Shown one piece after another: positions 4,066-12,858 of a stretch of DNA of 24,530 bases. The notes beneath the pieces were generated by a model that was not told the origin of the DNA, searched no databases, and was given only the letters and a program-made list of their open reading frames with translations. The stretch spans positions 1-24,530 of the IMG/VR virus record IMGVR_UViG_3300020169_000109. One strand, given 5' to 3'. This stretch comes from a virus. The position numbers and the translations under genes were made by a program. Positions within the stretch are counted from its first letter, which is position 1. Every line of letters starts with the position of its first letter.

Positions 4066-4389
4066 ATGACAAAATCCGAAGTATTAAAGGTTATGATTGA
4101 TTTCTTTCATGAGCAGGGACGTGTGCCCTCTAGAAGTGAATATTATAAGCTAGGACCAGACGTATGGCCTATCAATCCAAGACTTTTAACAAGATATTTT
4201 AGAGGTAGGGGTTATAACTCTATCGTTAAAACTGCTGCACAGATGTATCCTGCAGATTGGAACTCAATTGGTAGTAAGCCTGTTGAAGAACCTAAACCAA
4301 TGAAAAAGCCCGTTCTTGAGCCGGCTTCAGAAGATGACCTTTCTCCTCTGGAGAAATTAAAATCTATAAAAGGAGAATCAATTGAATAA
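4066..4389 (+). CDS. Small protein with homing-endonuclease-associated-repeat-like domain
   Basis: A 107-residue protein whose ATG directly follows the portal TAA, with GAGGAAA upstream as ribosome site. The first 60 residues are a compact helical unit: KSEVLKVMIDFFHEQGRVPS, then RSEYYKLG, INPRLLTRYFRGRGYNSIVK. The pattern G-R-V-P-S/T, short helix, R-Y-F, G-Y-x-S-I/A resembles the DNA-binding repeat often attached to homing endonucleases. The rest (residues 63-107) is a Pro/Glu/Lys-rich linker. In this position it may help head assembly or bind DNA at the portal; neither is shown. The 3' end supplies the AGGAG site for the capsid gene and overlaps it by 8 bases. Confidence 0.55.
   Translation: MTKSEVLKVMIDFFHEQGRVPSRSEYYKLGPDVWPINPRLLTRYFRGRGYNSIVKTAAQMYPADWNSIGSKPVEEPKPMKKPVLEPASEDDLSPLEKLKSIKGESIE
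4371..4384 (+). promoter_or_regulatory. Ribosome site deciding a TTG start for the protease-capsid fusion
   Basis: AGGAG at 4371-4375 is 6 bases upstream of TTG at 4382-4384. The protein from this TTG starts MNKIFHIGSTFKAYEDG, matching the expected N-terminal strand of an HK97-type prohead protease. The first in-frame ATG afterwards (4454) would delete that strand. Confidence 0.7.
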
Positions 4390-6418
4390 AATTTTTCATA
4401 TTGGCTCCACTTTTAAAGCCTATGAAGATGGGGATGATCTCCATATCACAGGTATGGCCAGTACTAATAGTACTGACCGAGTTGGAGATATTATTGAATC
4501 TGAAGCCTGGACAAAGGGCGGACTTCAAAACTATTTAAACAATCCAGTTATTCTTTTTAATCACGACTACAACCAGCCGATTGGCCGAGCAATTTCGCTT
4601 GGTACTAACGACAATGGTCTGCAGCTAAAAGCAAAAATTGCTAAATCTGCTGGACATGTAGGAGAGTTAATTAAAGAAGGCGTCCTTGGAGCTTTTTCAG
4701 TCGGGTTTCGAGTCAAGGATGCGGAGTATATGACCGAAACCGATGGATATAAGATTAAGGACGCAGAGTTATTGGAGGTTTCCGTAGTTACGGTTCCTGC
4801 TAACCAAGCTGCTACCTTTTCTCTTGCTAAGTCTTTTAACTCTGATTCAGAATATGAAGACTTCAAGAAATCTTTCAAAACAGTAGATTCCTTAACAGAA
4901 TCTAATAAACTTCAGGAAACTGAAAAACATCTAGATTCCGTTAACGAATCAATGCCTACCGACTCTGATAAAGTCGAAGCACAGGAGAAAACTATGAGTG
5001 ATATCGATATTGATGCGATTGTGGCTGCTGCTGTCGAAAAGACCGCAACTGCAATGGCAATGAAAGAAGCTGAACGCAAGTCAGAAGAGAAAACGCGATT
5101 GGAAGCAGAACAAAAAGCTGCTGCCGAAGCCGAAGCTCAGAAGTCTGCACAAGAAGCTCAAATTGCAACCGCTGTATCTAGTGGTGCAGAACGTTTAATG
5201 GCTGACGTCGAAGCAAAAATGAGTGCTAAAGACGCTGACCATGCAGAAATTATTGGTTCATTGCAAAATGAACTGAAAGAAAAAGCCGCTGAAATTGAAA
5301 AAATTCAGCAGAGCAAGCGAGTCTTCTCAGACCGCGCTAGCCAAAAGTCTGAATTGTCAGAAGAAGATATGGTAAATGCACACGTTTTGGGTGTAGTTAC
5401 TAATAAAGGTATGGACACTCGTTTTGGTCGTTCTATCATGGAAAAAGTTAATGCCAGCTCTGGTGTAACTGTTCCTACTTCTACTACTGCGGACTTTGAG
5501 TCAACAGTATCTACCGCTATTCAGCGCGATATTGAGCTTGAACTCGTTCTTGACCCTCTTTTCCGTAAGATTCAGATGAATGCTGCTTCTATGGTTATCC
5601 CAACTATGCCTGATTCAGGTTACGCAGAGTGGCTTGGTAGCAATGCTGCCGGCACCGGCGCAGGTTCTGCCTTCAAGGGTAACTTAGGCGATCGTGATGA
5701 AGCTTCTCCTGGCGCTAACGCTGGTATTGGCTTAGGTAGCAAAGTCTTGACCGTAGAAAAGTTGGTTTCTAAGTCTTTCATGGCTAATGAAACTGAAGAA
5801 GATGCAATTATGCCTATTCTTCCTTTGATTCGTGAAGCTATGGTACGTGCTCATGCACGCGCTATTGAGCATTCAATTCTTCAAGCTGGTCATACTGCTG
5901 AAGTAGTAAACTCTGGGGGCCAAACTGGTCTTATCCAGCAGGCTATTGCTGCTAGCAAGAAGCTTGATACTGGTGCTTCTGCTGGTGCAGCTAGTGTTAC
6001 TGCTACTACTGCTGCTTTGTTGAATATGCGTCAAGCAATGGGTAAATACGGTCGTCGTCCTTCAGACGTAGTTTATGTTGTATCTTTAGATGCATACTAC
6101 GATTTGCTTGATGATGCTGAATTCCAAGATGTAAACTTGGTTGGTGGCGATCGCGCTACTAAGATTTCAGGCGAAATTGGTCAGGCTTATGGCTCACCCA
6201 TTATCGTTTGTGACGAGTTTACTGCCGGTAAAACTGCTAACAAGGTTTGGGGTGTTGCTGTCAATACTCGTAACTTCCTTGTACCAGTATTACGTGGTGT
6301 AACTGTTGAATCAGACTACGATGTTGAAAATCAGCGTCGAGTACTGGTTGCTACTCAGCGTCGTGGCTTTGATGTCATGTTTGCTGATGCAGGACAAGTT
6401 GTTTGTCACGCTTGGTAA
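4382..6418 (+). CDS. Prohead protease - scaffold - major capsid protein fusion
   Basis: A 678-residue protein with three parts. Residues 1-150 are an HK97/U35-type prohead protease: LFNHDY (H61), GAFSVGF (S106) and ELLEVSVVTVPANQ (E132), the expected catalytic set. Residues about 205-320 are an Ala/Glu/Lys-rich coiled coil, the scaffolding (delta-like) region. Residues about 325-678 are an HK97-fold major capsid protein: RFGRSIMEKVNASSGVTVPT, the P-domain-like helix AMVRAHARAIEHSIL, NMRQAMGKYGRRPSDVV, and the C-terminal QRRGFDVMFADA. HK97 itself keeps protease and capsid separate; fused versions are known in other phages. An AGGAG plus ATG at 4983-4996 lies in frame at residue 205, so a 474-residue scaffold-capsid protein is probably also made. 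In the capsid domain all Arg codons I read are CGN, unlike downstream genes rich in AGA. A hairpin follows the stop. Confidence 0.9.
   Translation: MNKIFHIGSTFKAYEDGDDLHITGMASTNSTDRVGDIIESEAWTKGGLQNYLNNPVILFNHDYNQPIGRAISLGTNDNGLQLKAKIAKSAGHVGELIKEGVLGAFSVGFRVKDAEYMTETDGYKIKDAELLEVSVVTVPANQAATFSLAKSFNSDSEYEDFKKSFKTVDSLTESNKLQETEKHLDSVNESMPTDSDKVEAQEKTMSDIDIDAIVAAAVEKTATAMAMKEAERKSEEKTRLEAEQKAAAEAEAQKSAQEAQIATAVSSGAERLMADVEAKMSAKDADHAEIIGSLQNELKEKAAEIEKIQQSKRVFSDRASQKSELSEEDMVNAHVLGVVTNKGMDTRFGRSIMEKVNASSGVTVPTSTTADFESTVSTAIQRDIELELVLDPLFRKIQMNAASMVIPTMPDSGYAEWLGSNAAGTGAGSAFKGNLGDRDEASPGANAGIGLGSKVLTVEKLVSKSFMANETEEDAIMPILPLIREAMVRAHARAIEHSILQAGHTAEVVNSGGQTGLIQQAIAASKKLDTGASAGAASVTATTAALLNMRQAMGKYGRRPSDVVYVVSLDAYYDLLDDAEFQDVNLVGGDRATKISGEIGQAYGSPIIVCDEFTAGKTANKVWGVAVNTRNFLVPVLRGVTVESDYDVENQRRVLVATQRRGFDVMFADAGQVVCHAW
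4983..4996 (+). promoter_or_regulatory. Internal ribosome site and in-frame ATG inside the protease-capsid gene
   Basis: AGGAG (4983-4987), 6 spacer bases, then ATG (4994-4996) in the same frame as the TTG at 4382. The product would start MSDIDIDAIVAAAVEK at residue 205 of the fusion, at the protease/scaffold junction, and be 474 residues long. The spacing is at least as good as that of the upstream start. Confidence 0.7.
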
Positions 6419-9011: not shown

Positions 9012-9053
9012 CCTTTTAGGTTAAGGGGAAAGCTTGTAAAGTTTTCTCAGGAG
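9009..9053 (+). promoter_or_regulatory. Two short hairpins and ribosome site before the first tail tube gene
   Basis: The 49-base gap holds TAACC (9009-9013) pairing with GGTTA (9019-9023), and GAAAGCTT (9028-9035) pairing with AAGTTTTC (9039-9046, one G-U, loop GTA), right before the AGGAG at 9049-9053. I see no convincing promoter here. The structures could stabilise or process mRNA near a gene that needs high expression. Confidence 0.4.
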
Positions 9054-9087
9054 AAATAAAATGGCATTACAATTTACAAGAAATGCA
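9050..9087 (+). repeat. 38-base exact repeat, copy 1 (ribosome site plus tail tube start)
   Basis: The 38 bases from GGAG through the ninth codon of the first tail tube gene are identical to 10469-10506 in front of the second copy. The duplication therefore included the translation signal. Confidence 0.9.
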
Positions 9088-10464
9088 GGAGTATACATAG
9101 AATTACTAGACTCTAGTACAGGAAAGCCAAAAGCTCACTGGAAAATGTCTGTTCTTGATGGATTTTCCTTTACTCAATCAATTAACTCATCAGAGATTAC
9201 AATTAATGAAGCAGGAGCTACTTCAAGACGAGCAAGATTGCTCTTTAACGATAGTTTAGCTCCTGTAGAGTGGTCTTTAAGCACATACGCTCGTCCTTTC
9301 TTAGATTCGGCTCCTGCTGTTTGTAGGGCTCCGGAAGATGTACTGTGGGCTATGGCTTTGGGCGCAGATGACTATAATGACACTTCAGGTGTCTTTTCTA
9401 ATGTATCTTTGACCCCAGATGTTCCAGTAAATACTGCCACTTCGGGAAGCAACACATTTAATTTTAATGGATCCAATGTTTCTTCTTTCGGAGATAATTG
9501 GAACATGTACTTTGCTTTCGAGGATGGCACAAATACTCAGTATTATAAGCTTGGAAGTTCGGTCGTAAATTCAGTATCAATGGACTTTGATATTGACGGT
9601 ATTGCTACTATCTCTTGGAGCGGATTTGCCAAAGAGTTAGGTGACGAAGGGGTTGTTCAGCCCGGCTTTATTAAAACCGCAGCTAACAGAACCCAGTATA
9701 CAGTAACTGGAGCTACTGGAAACGCTGGAACCCCTAATGTGGTAACAGCCTTAACTGGCGACACGACAGGGCTAGTGGTGGGTAGTCGTATTTTTGTAGA
9801 GGGAAACACTGCTTATGATACTCCAGCAACAGGGGCTCTGATCACCGCCGTAGTTTCAAATACTTCTTTCTCTTATGAAATTACGACTAATATTACTACT
9901 GCTGATCACTTTAACGGTACTTTTGGACTAACTCCTACGGGGATTAGCGCTAAAAACACCGAAACAAGTGGTTTAACAACAACAACAAACTTTATTCGTA
10001 ATCGTATTTCGACAGTAACTCTTGATAGAACCGATGTAGTTAAAACGTATGAGCTTGTCTTAACCGGCGGTAGCTTTACCTTAGAAAACAACATTAACTA
10101 CCTGACTCCTGAAGAATTAGGTGTTGTAAATGCTCCATTAGCTAACATCACTGGCGCTCGGTCTATTTCGGGATCAATGACTTGTTACTTAGATAATGAT
10201 AGTGCTGCAAATAAGTCTGGCACTCTTTTTGCAGACTTAGTAGCAGATACATCCACTATTAGAAATATATTTGAGATGCAGCTTCAAATGGGAGGAGCCA
10301 CGCCTAGTACTCCACGAGTTTATCTAGACATGAACTCAGCCCATCTAGAAATTCCCACTATTAACGTTGAAGATCTTCTTACTCTTGAGATTAACTTCCA
10401 TGGCCAAGTACTTGGCGGTGATGTGGATTTAACCAACGAAGCAACTATTATTTATAATACGTAA
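9061..10464 (+). CDS. Major tail tube protein, copy 1, with internal beta-sandwich insertion
   Basis: A 467-residue tail tube-type protein, strongly paralogous to the next gene. Shared core blocks are MALQFTRNA, VLDGFSFTQSINSSEITINE, TSRRARLLFNDSLAPVEWSL, WNMYFAFEDGTN, DFDIDGIATISWSGFAK, TNFIRNR, NNINYLTPEELGVVNAPLAN and LEIPTINVEDLLTLE. Residues about 203-303 are an insert absent from copy 2: YTVTGATGNAGTPNVVTALT, TTGLVVGSRIFVEG, LITAVVSNTSFSYE, a beta-rich decoration type seen in phage virion proteins. Good AGGAG site 7 bases before the ATG. The protein would polymerise around the tape measure as hexameric rings, with the insert probably on the outer surface. The tail tube call follows from position between tail terminator and chaperone/tape measure genes. 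Confidence 0.8.
   Translation: MALQFTRNAGVYIELLDSSTGKPKAHWKMSVLDGFSFTQSINSSEITINEAGATSRRARLLFNDSLAPVEWSLSTYARPFLDSAPAVCRAPEDVLWAMALGADDYNDTSGVFSNVSLTPDVPVNTATSGSNTFNFNGSNVSSFGDNWNMYFAFEDGTNTQYYKLGSSVVNSVSMDFDIDGIATISWSGFAKELGDEGVVQPGFIKTAANRTQYTVTGATGNAGTPNVVTALTGDTTGLVVGSRIFVEGNTAYDTPATGALITAVVSNTSFSYEITTNITTADHFNGTFGLTPTGISAKNTETSGLTTTTNFIRNRISTVTLDRTDVVKTYELVLTGGSFTLENNINYLTPEELGVVNAPLANITGARSISGSMTCYLDNDSAANKSGTLFADLVADTSTIRNIFEMQLQMGGATPSTPRVYLDMNSAHLEIPTINVEDLLTLEINFHGQVLGGDVDLTNEATIIYNT
9244..9290 (+). repeat. 47-base exact identity patch, copy 1
   Basis: 47 bases coding for FNDSLAPVEWSLSTYA are identical to 10645-10691 in the second tail tube gene, although the DNA just upstream carries many synonymous differences between the two copies. 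Confidence 0.85.
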
Positions 10465-10468
10465 TACT

Positions 10469-10506
10469 GGAGAAATAAAATGGCATTACAATTTACAAGA
10501 AATGCA
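10469..10506 (+). repeat. 38-base exact repeat, copy 2
   Basis: Identical to 9050-9087; it covers the GGAG ribosome site and first nine codons of the second tail tube gene. Confidence 0.9.
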
Positions 10507-11829
10507 AAAGTATACATCGAACTACAAGGTTCTCAAGTATGGCAACTTTCTGTACTAGACGGGTTTTCTTTTACTCAGTCTATTAATTCTTCAGAAATTA
10601 CTATCAACGAAGCCGGCTCTACATCTCGTAGAGCCCGTCTTCTTTTTAACGATAGTTTAGCTCCTGTAGAGTGGTCTTTAAGCACATACGCACGTCCTTT
10701 CGAGGAAAGTGCGAGTCAGGTAAGGTGCCCAGAAGAAGCTTTATGGGCAATGATGTTTGGTGCAGATGCTTACTCCGCAGGTGTTTTTAGTAGGACTGGT
10801 TTCGTTGAAGTAACTGGAATAGCTGGGGTTCCTGGTGCGGCTCTTATCGCTAATGGTCCAGAATATGAAATTACAACTGAAGGTGATACAAACTGGACGG
10901 CCATTGGGGCTTTAGATGCTACGGCAGGCACTCGTTTTATCTATAATGGTGAAGACATTACAGGTACTACAGGCGTTGCAAAGCTCACTAAGAATATTAA
11001 TACTCTTACGAATGATTCGGATGAAGATCCTGGAGATGCTAATATTTTCAATCTCTCTAAGTCTAACGTATCTTCGTTTTCAGACTCCTGGAACATGTAC
11101 TTTGCTTTTGAGGATGGTACTAATAAGCAATACTATAAACTAAGTAGTGCTGTAGTAAATTCTGCCTCAGTAGACTTCGACATTGATGGTATTGCTACTA
11201 TCTCTTGGAGTGGTTTCGCTAAAAACTTAAGCGACGAAGGAACCTCTCAACCAGGAGTACTTGCCGCCGCTAGAGCGGAAGGGCTTACTTCCACCACTAA
11301 CTTTATTCGTAATCGTGTATCTACTGTAGACCTCACTAGAACGGATAAGTTTATCGGGGATGTTGATAGTCCTTTAGGTGAATCGGATACTTCTGGGGCA
11401 ATCAAAGATGTTTACCAAGTAGTTCTAACTGGAGGAAATTTTACGATTGAGAATAATATCAACTACCTGACTCCCGAAGAATTAGGTGTTGTAAATGCTC
11501 CATTAGCAAACATTACCGGAGCCAGAAGCGTTAGTGGAAGTTTAACTTGTTACTTAGATAATGATAAAACTAATAGTAAGTCTGGGGAACTCTTCGCTGA
11601 TTTAGTCTCCGATACAAGCACTATCAGAAATGTGTTTGATCTAGGCATTAATATTGGAGGAGGTGCAGTAAGTACTCCTAGATTAGGTTTTTCTTTGCCG
11701 ACGGCTCATTTAGAAATTCCTACTATTAACGTTGAAGACCTTCTTACTTTAGAAGTTAACTTCCACGGCCAAGTGCAGGGTGGCGACGTAGATTTAACCA
11801 ACGAAGCAACCATTAGTTACAAGGCATAA
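10480..11829 (+). CDS. Tail tube protein, copy 2, with a different insertion
   Basis: A 449-residue paralogue of the preceding protein with the same core blocks along its whole length. It lacks the ~100-residue insert of copy 1. Instead it has ~65 extra residues at about 107-171: GFVEVTGIAGVPGAALIANG, YEITTEGDTNWTAIGALDAT and GTRFIYNGEDITGTTGVA. This matches a short beta motif (Y-x-I-x-x-x-G-x-T-x-W-x-A-I-G-A ... GTGTA) common in marine phage virion proteins. A second small insertion (DSPLGESDTSGAIKD) lies near residue 300. The two proteins may form mixed rings, segregate along the tube, or act in different morphogenetic steps. The stop at 11829 is followed within 13 bases by promoter P3. GGAG lies 7 bases before the ATG. 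Confidence 0.8.
   Translation: MALQFTRNAKVYIELQGSQVWQLSVLDGFSFTQSINSSEITINEAGSTSRRARLLFNDSLAPVEWSLSTYARPFEESASQVRCPEEALWAMMFGADAYSAGVFSRTGFVEVTGIAGVPGAALIANGPEYEITTEGDTNWTAIGALDATAGTRFIYNGEDITGTTGVAKLTKNINTLTNDSDEDPGDANIFNLSKSNVSSFSDSWNMYFAFEDGTNKQYYKLSSAVVNSASVDFDIDGIATISWSGFAKNLSDEGTSQPGVLAAARAEGLTSTTNFIRNRVSTVDLTRTDKFIGDVDSPLGESDTSGAIKDVYQVVLTGGNFTIENNINYLTPEELGVVNAPLANITGARSVSGSLTCYLDNDKTNSKSGELFADLVSDTSTIRNVFDLGINIGGGAVSTPRLGFSLPTAHLEIPTINVEDLLTLEVNFHGQVQGGDVDLTNEATISYKA
10645..10691 (+). repeat. 47-base exact identity patch, copy 2
   Basis: Identical to 9244-9290 in the first tail tube gene. Confidence 0.85.
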
Positions 11830-11841
11830 AAAAAATAATTC

Positions 11842-11870
11842 TTGACAAATTCCTATTTGTTAGTTATAAT
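11842..11870 (+). promoter_or_regulatory. Consensus sigma70 promoter P3
   Basis: A perfect TTGACA (11842-11847), 17-base spacer and perfect TATAAT (11865-11870), preceded by an A-run and AATAATTC as in P2. A transcript start near 11876-11878 is expected, just before the leader hairpin. It drives the third tail-tube-like gene and probably the chaperone, tape measure and tip genes. Confidence 0.9.
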
Positions 11871-11879
11871 TATTGAGAA

Positions 11880-11929
11880 TTGGGGGGAATTATTCCCCCA
11901 AACCTCTATAAGGAGATTGTCAAGGAGAT
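11880..11929 (+). promoter_or_regulatory. 5' leader hairpin and doubled Shine-Dalgarno sequence
   Basis: TTGGGGG (11880-11886) pairs with CCCCCAA (11895-11901); an alternative register pairs GGGGGAA (11883-11889) with TTCCCCC (11893-11899). No T-run follows, so it is not a terminator. It would sit at the very 5' end of the P3 mRNA, the position of stabilising hairpins. AAGGAGAT occurs twice downstream (11910-11917 and 11922-11929); the second copy serves the GTG at 11935. Confidence 0.65.
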
Positions 11930-11934
11930 CCTAA

Positions 11935-12858
11935 GTGAGTTTTGAATTTATAAGAGAAGGCCGAGTATGGCTGGAGTATCCAACTAATACTTTTTACCTT
12001 CTTCATACAATGAAAGATGTCACTTTCTCCCAAACCTTTCAACAAGAAGGAGTTGCAAAAAGAACTTTGCATAGCCCGAATAATTTGTTTGAAGGTTCCG
12101 TCATCAATAGAGCAAATCCAGCAGACTTCTCTTTCACTTTGTATATGATGGATGAAGCCTCGCTATACCAGCATAAGCCTCTGGATTTATTATTAGATTA
12201 CAACGGAAATAGTTTAAACACTTTCAATCTTTATTTTGTATACCAGAACAAAAGTCCTGCGGTTTACTATAAGATAGAAAATGCAGTTTTTACTAGTGGA
12301 ACTTTCAATATTCCAAGAGCTGGAATAATGACAGTGCCTCTTTCCGGACAAGGAACTAAACTTACGAGAACAGAAGGAACATTTAATCCTTCTCTCGGTA
12401 CTTATGATACTACACCAAGTTTCGCAGTATCAAAAGAGTTCATTGTATCCGTTCAAGGAAGTGATTTAGATAATATTCAGGGAGCATCCCTAGAGCTACA
12501 AAACGATATATCTTGGACAAAGAATGATACTATTCATCGTACTCAAGATGTAACAGATGCCTCCAATACAATCTACCCAAACTCCTTCACTTTAGAAGGA
12601 AGAACTTTGGGTGGAAGTATTACTCAATATATTGATAATACTAATACTGAATCTATTGATAATTTATTTACTTGGAGTGAAAATGCTTCTGTACGTATTC
12701 GTGCCGGATTTTCAGCCGCTGATTTGCAATTAGATATAAATATGCCAAGTGCTTGTTCTTTTACGAATAGACCCGCCTTTGGTGAAATTTTCTCACAAAA
12801 TTATGATTTTCGTCTAATGAGCAACCCAGCAAATTTAAACACTTATTTTACTTATTAG
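11935..12858 (+). CDS. Third, divergent tail-tube-like protein
   Basis: A 307-residue protein from GTG with AAGGAG 7 bases upstream. It follows the same block order as the two upstream tube proteins at much lower identity: FIREGRVWLEY, DVTFSQTFQQEGVAKRTLHS, PADFSFTLYM, FNLYFVYQNKSPAVYYKIEN, FNIPRAGIMTVPLSGQGTKL, LELQNDISW, LEGRTLGGSITQYIDNTN and LDINMPSACSF. It has no large insertion, so it may show the minimal fold. It has its own promoter (P3) and leader. It could be a specialised ring at the tube end, a tube initiator next to the tip, or an adaptor to the terminator. The homology is my reading of aligned blocks and needs structural confirmation. Confidence 0.65.
   Translation: MSFEFIREGRVWLEYPTNTFYLLHTMKDVTFSQTFQQEGVAKRTLHSPNNLFEGSVINRANPADFSFTLYMMDEASLYQHKPLDLLLDYNGNSLNTFNLYFVYQNKSPAVYYKIENAVFTSGTFNIPRAGIMTVPLSGQGTKLTRTEGTFNPSLGTYDTTPSFAVSKEFIVSVQGSDLDNIQGASLELQNDISWTKNDTIHRTQDVTDASNTIYPNSFTLEGRTLGGSITQYIDNTNTESIDNLFTWSENASVRIRAGFSAADLQLDINMPSACSFTNRPAFGEIFSQNYDFRLMSNPANLNTYFTY

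Follow-up and report, generated by a model that had tools for sequence, protein, structure and literature searches.

The tail tubes of phages are usually regarded as homopolymers with no more than one optional decoration. A 24.5 kb virus record, analyzed here over its whole length (24,530 nucleotides; the window), encodes two adjacent tube-type proteins. A preliminary description claimed that they share a core but carry different domains in different loops. The question is whether two such paralogues could build one tail tube.

A T5-like late module with two tube genes

The late module in the window is T5-like. It begins with terminase and portal, then a protease fused to the capsid protein, a head-tail adaptor, a p143-like protein, and the tail terminator. 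The tail terminator is followed by two tail tube protein genes, TTP1 and TTP2, and then by a p140-type baseplate tube protein, a chaperone, a gene at the tape measure position, and a pb9-type distal tail protein. The 1595 aa tape measure gene was identified by position and size. T5 has the same gene order around its one tube gene, and the window pair lies in the corresponding context, between the tail terminator and p140/tape measure. The head maturation protease and the major capsid protein form a single 678 aa protein (4382-6418), a fusion also present in actinobacteriophages with several tail tube genes.

TTP1 (467 aa; 9061..10464, + strand) and TTP2 (449 aa; 10480..11829, + strand) are separated by 15 nt. 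The ribosome-binding region GGAGAAATAAA is found at 9050..9060 for TTP1 and at 10469..10479 for TTP2, both on the + strand. As originally observed, this site and the first nine codons (ATG GCA TTA CAA TTT ACA AGA AAT GCA) do not differ between the two genes. The generation of two forms by frameshift or read-through is ruled out, as these are two complete genes, each with its own start and ribosome site. An assembly artefact or chance is ruled out, as this gene pair recurs in three other contigs, where its inserts are orthologous.

Both proteins match T5 pb6 over both tube subdomains (phmmer E 1e-36 for TTP1 and 3e-35 for TTP2), and both match PHROG 3575 (E 6e-45 and 8e-46, respectively). TTP1 aligns to pb6 in two separate stretches, 1-176 and 196-349. 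AlphaFold models of TTP1 and TTP2 were built on 42 window and locus sequences. Their best PDB matches are the tail tube proteins of T5 and DT57C (Foldseek; 7qg9_A, E 1e-26 for TTP1; 9iny_A, E 3e-27 for TTP2; TM about 0.62-0.78). The pLDDT values are mostly over 80 in the core blocks and mostly under 50 in the inserts. These results support the assignment of TTP1 and TTP2 to the tail-tube proteins of the T5 pb6 family (PHROG 3575), and the two adjacent tube-type reading frames are confirmed. By homology with pb6, they are likely to form a tube of trimeric rings. The C-terminal Ig-like (Big_2) domain, an accessory and not a defining feature, is absent from TTP1 and TTP2, which both stop at the tube core. 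It is also missing in some T5-like tube proteins (PMC5717097).

The core of TTP1 and TTP2 shows 74% amino-acid identity over 365 aligned residues. "Near-identical", the wording used earlier, is somewhat strong for the whole core, but it holds for the region corresponding to pb6 35-78 (43 of 44 residues).

The next gene (11935..12858, + strand) encodes a p140-type baseplate tube (tail tip middle) protein distinct from TTP1 and TTP2 (PF23779, E 6e-14; PHROG 3889). PF23779 matches this protein and shows no match to TTP1 or TTP2. TTP2 as the p140 baseplate tube is thus ruled out in the window, and with a distinct p140 gene after TTP2, neither copy is needed for the p140 role.

Inserted domains

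The positions of inserts were taken from an alignment of 105 non-redundant family members. The TTP1 insert (residues 203-298, 96 aa; 9667..9954, + strand) lies at pb6 187. Since pb6 187 falls between the two stretches aligned separately, the insert is placed in the linker joining the tube subdomains. Orthologous inserts are found in L060, L061, L083, and L013. The TTP2 insert (residues 107-170, about 63 aa; 10798..10989, + strand), designated here the "WTAIGA" module, follows the subdomain-1 helix (pb6 108-111) and has homologues in other tube proteins. The alignment with TTP1 and relatives also revealed a small TTP2 insertion of about 18 aa near pb6 219, with approximate boundaries (around residues 290-308; 11347..11403, + strand).

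The boundaries first proposed, 203-303 and 107-171, are within a few residues of those from the alignment. Inserts 1 and 2 show no likeness to each other in profile searches and occupy different alignment columns, consistent with the claim that they are unrelated and differently positioned. It is also supported that they are extra modules and not core elements: single-copy homologues lack them, and the AlphaFold core is confident without them.

Insertion sites are reused across the family at 108-111, 187, and 216-219 (pb6 numbering), and at the C-terminus in T5. The TTP2 module is present at pb6 216-219 in the single-copy tube proteins of L117, L119, and L123 (E 1e-5 to 1e-6). In the p140-like proteins of L039, L040, and L109, the match was weaker initially and became clear after iteration. 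In these six loci, the module, with the pattern Y.I...G.TNWTAIGA...G..F, is located at differing sites of tube and baseplate tube proteins. Such recurrence in other tube proteins indicates a transferable module, and the TTP2 insert thus behaves as a transferable decoration. Insert 2 has no match in an IMG/VR peptide scan or INPHARED; a relative of it shows a weak match to a cyanophage structural protein (E 0.01).

Insert 1 is seen only in TTP1 orthologues. Outside the tandem lineage, no homologues were found in the IMG/VR peptide scan or INPHARED, and there is no convincing Pfam or PHROG match. Its composition and low-confidence model suggest that it may be a beta domain.

The p140-like baseplate tube proteins of L054, L056, L119, and L153 are 495-773 aa long versus the usual 300 aa. 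The p140-like gene of these loci also seems to take up insertions.

Origin and maintenance of the tandem pair

The nearest single-copy relatives are 377 aa tube proteins without either insert. In the phylogenetic tree, the window pair and its orthologues in L060 and L061 form one clade within single-copy relatives (support 100), although the support is weaker (0.68) in a larger fast tree. This topology indicates that the pair is a product of tandem duplication inside a single-copy clade. Synonymous sites of orthologues are near saturation, and the pair is thus older than the split from L060. In the gene conversion test, the window pair shows one significant run of 14 identical codons, the last at TTP1 residue 76 (permutation p 0.004). 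No such run is present in the L060 and L061 pairs; therefore, gene conversion is local at most.

A second tandem pair is found in L029, L030, and L154. In this lineage, copies 1 group together and copies 2 group together (supports 0.79 and 0.93), apart from the window clade. Tandem pairs thus appear to have arisen at least twice. This second lineage retains two copies over a long divergence. In L029 and L030, the extra sequence likewise lies at 187 in copy 1 (23-30 aa) and at 108 in copy 2 (52-54 aa). In L154 (3438-5417), a 659 aa tube protein with around 230 extra residues at pb6 219 stands beside a plain 396 aa paralogue. All extra sequence is in one copy here, so two decorations are not universal in tandem pairs.

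Of 116 contigs with sufficient flanking sequence, about 9 have two tube genes and the others one. In INPHARED, 904 tube gene places were detected in 903 records, indicating that cultured relatives, with at most one exception, have a single detectable gene. A second tube-like gene in L113 (346 aa) is very divergent. L021, scored as two pieces, looks like one gene interrupted by a stop.

The reading frames of TTP1 and TTP2 are intact in four contigs, and each copy has a dN much lower than its dS. Both copies thus persist under purifying selection. If one copy were a non-functional relic or stayed out of virions, intact frames, this dN/dS pattern, and the conservation of assembly loops in both copies (see below) would not be expected; that explanation is very improbable.

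The second copy might merely raise the amount of tube protein while the inserts drift. The demand for tube protein is high, with 40 trimeric rings per T5 tail (PMC5717097). Against such a dosage effect, orthologous inserts have been retained in each copy since before the L060 split. Tape measure frames are equally long in single-copy L065 and L066 (at least 1604 and 1623 codons, versus 1599 in the window), and the frame of tandem L154 is short (1019 codons). A longer tail requiring more subunits is ruled out by these equally long tape measures, and dosage as the sole explanation is regarded as quite unlikely.

The tandem pairs of L060, L061, and L083 have alignable inserts that are 52-60% identical to those of the window, whereas the orthologues as whole proteins are 73-75% identical. 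This lower conservation could reflect escape from tube sensing, in which the presence of a second subunit with another decoration masks or dilutes the epitopes recognized by defences that bind tail tube protein, such as DSR2. DSR2 is known to be activated by a phage tail tube protein (PMC10981675). Escape of this kind is compatible with, and not exclusive of, a tube of two decorated paralogues; as the main explanation for the pair, it is given little probability.

Expression of the tube genes

A perfect consensus sigma-70 promoter, TTGACA-N17-TATAAT, is located after TTP2 (11842..11870, + strand). About 10 nt downstream, there is a hairpin, TTGGGGGGAATTATTCCCCCAA (11879..11900, + strand). Many relatives conserve the promoter immediately past their final TTP gene. 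Of 94 matches to TTGACW-N16-18-TATAAT across 169 loci (1.65 Mb, a redundant set), 92 are situated 10-70 nt past the last TTP stop. In the window, L060, L061, and L083, the promoter follows TTP2, and there is no match between the copies. Many loci have a G/C hairpin with a T-rich tract around 10 nt past the promoter. No copy of the promoter element was detected in L029, L030, or L154, nor in many relatives that are more distant. Another perfect consensus match is observed at 2461-2489, just past the terminase gene (0.03 expected by chance in the window).

Identical ribosome sites and a promoter after the second copy only suggest one expression unit. The promoter, which has TTP1 and TTP2 both upstream of it, may mark where a highly expressed capsid-tube unit ends. 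The promoter-hairpin combination resembles an element that both terminates and restarts transcription, or one that yields a very short RNA.

This arrangement bears on the possibility of a segmented tube, in which one paralogue makes up most of the tube and the other a special segment, for example, rings by the neck or the tail tip. Tails already have distinct tube-like end proteins, such as p140, the tail tip middle protein by the tip of T5 and DT57C. However, a distinct p140 homologue is encoded directly after TTP2, and the identical ribosome sites on the same side of the promoter suggest similar output of TTP1 and TTP2, not a few rings of one of them. A segmented tube is unlikely.

Assembly loops and the proposed tube

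Tube formation by pb6 is abolished by the deletion of its two long loops (PMC5717097). These loops were put at pb6 35-78 and 229-262 from reading of the alignment, not from structural mapping. Between paralogues, the first loop shows 98-100% identity (43/44 in the window, 44/44 in L060) and the second 85-91% (31/34 in the window, 29/34 in L060). The linker at pb6 177-200 is only 29-45% identical (10/22 in the window, 7/24 in L060). In the older L029 pair, 33/47, 18/34, and 5/19 residues are identical in the first loop, second loop, and linker, respectively. The long loops are conserved family-wide; thus, identity between paralogues permits, but does not prove, co-assembly. Only five sites are the same within a genome but different between genomes, versus 20 paralogue-specific sites. 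Co-assembly of TTP1 and TTP2 is plausible, and both probably enter one tube.

The following scenario is proposed. One T5 pb6-type tail tube gene was duplicated in tandem in this lineage. The copies then gained unlike domains at separate permissive loops, TTP1 in the inter-subdomain linker and TTP2 after the subdomain-1 helix. The loops required for tube formation remained practically identical, and it is thus plausible that TTP1 and TTP2 can be built into one tube of trimeric rings. Produced from adjacent genes with identical ribosome sites, they would give a tail that displays two kinds of surface domain. These domains are likely to serve in weak host or glycan contact, or in ring reinforcement. 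Under this scenario, TTP1 and TTP2 would both be present in the virion and mix, and their inserts would project outward and play an adhesive role.

A tandem-duplicated pb6-type tube gene with different inserts in different loops, whose products co-assemble in one two-decoration tube, is the best explanation of the locus and is somewhat probable. The chance is about even for the wider proposal of a heteromeric siphophage tube, made of two dedicated paralogues with identical locking loops and a different transferable domain on each from a different loop, and reached at least twice in uncultured T5-like phages.

Comparison with known systems

T5 and DT57C pb6 (PDB 5ngj, 7qg9, 9iny, and 8hrg) belong to the same family as TTP1 and TTP2, also consist of two fused tube subdomains, and are encoded amid the same order of genes. 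The single tube gene of T5 encodes a C-terminal Ig-like domain, whereas the two genes of the window encode none and have inserts in internal loops.

In some actinobacteriophages, there are two or three related genes for the major tail protein, and the C-terminal tails of the products differ. In Gordonia cluster DJ (FortCran gp22/gp24) and Microbacterium cluster EL (DizzyRudy gp17/gp19/gp20), paralogous tube genes have a common core and differing extras, like the window pair. The two tube genes of the window are likewise related, and their accessory parts differ. These phages also have the fused protease-capsid protein. In DizzyRudy (L177, MK814756; 5783-9803), three PHROG 2645 paralogues share a common core and differ in their C-termini, one by around 300 residues. 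The tube family of DJ/EL phages is PHROG 2645 (by the DizzyRudy match), in contrast to PHROG 3575 in the window; their copies are partly separated by another gene, and their extras are C-terminal, not in two different loops.

The SPP1 tube mixes two forms, gp17.1 and gp17.1*, via frameshift (PMC8718954). The likeness is that one tail contains two tube forms, only one of which has a surface domain (ratio 3:1). In SPP1, they come from one gene by translational frameshift, with a C-terminal FN3 on one form only, while the window has two genes. In YSD1 (chi-like), a domain inserted in the tube fold wraps neighbours (PMC7385642). This domain 2 is a beta domain inside the tube protein, after a helix according to a review, as in TTP2. 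YSD1 has a single gene and a hexameric tube whose ring is girded by domain 2, and the likeness to the TTP2 insert is one of position. Phage G has two adjacent tube-protein candidates (gp179/gp180), as in the window, but it is a myophage.

Tail-tube decorations, either inserted in loops or C-terminal, are known in YSD1, T5, lambda, and SPP1. Given the actinobacteriophage, SPP1, and YSD1 precedents, it is not a new principle that a phage has several tube paralogues with different decorations. The earlier suggestion that separate decorated paralogues would be another route to a heterogeneous tail fits two full genes and no recoding; its novelty is smaller than it implied, since multi-paralogue tail phages (DJ and EL) are already reported. 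No description of a T5-family pair with two different internal insertion sites was found in the literature searched.

Implications

If the paralogues co-assemble, gene duplication and domain insertion would determine what the tail displays on its surface, making it a modular display with defined hot spots at pb6 108, 187, 219, and the C-terminus. The TTP pair would give a concrete test of the role of tail decoration. A mixed tube would also be a possible reason why several unrelated phage groups retain two or three tube genes.
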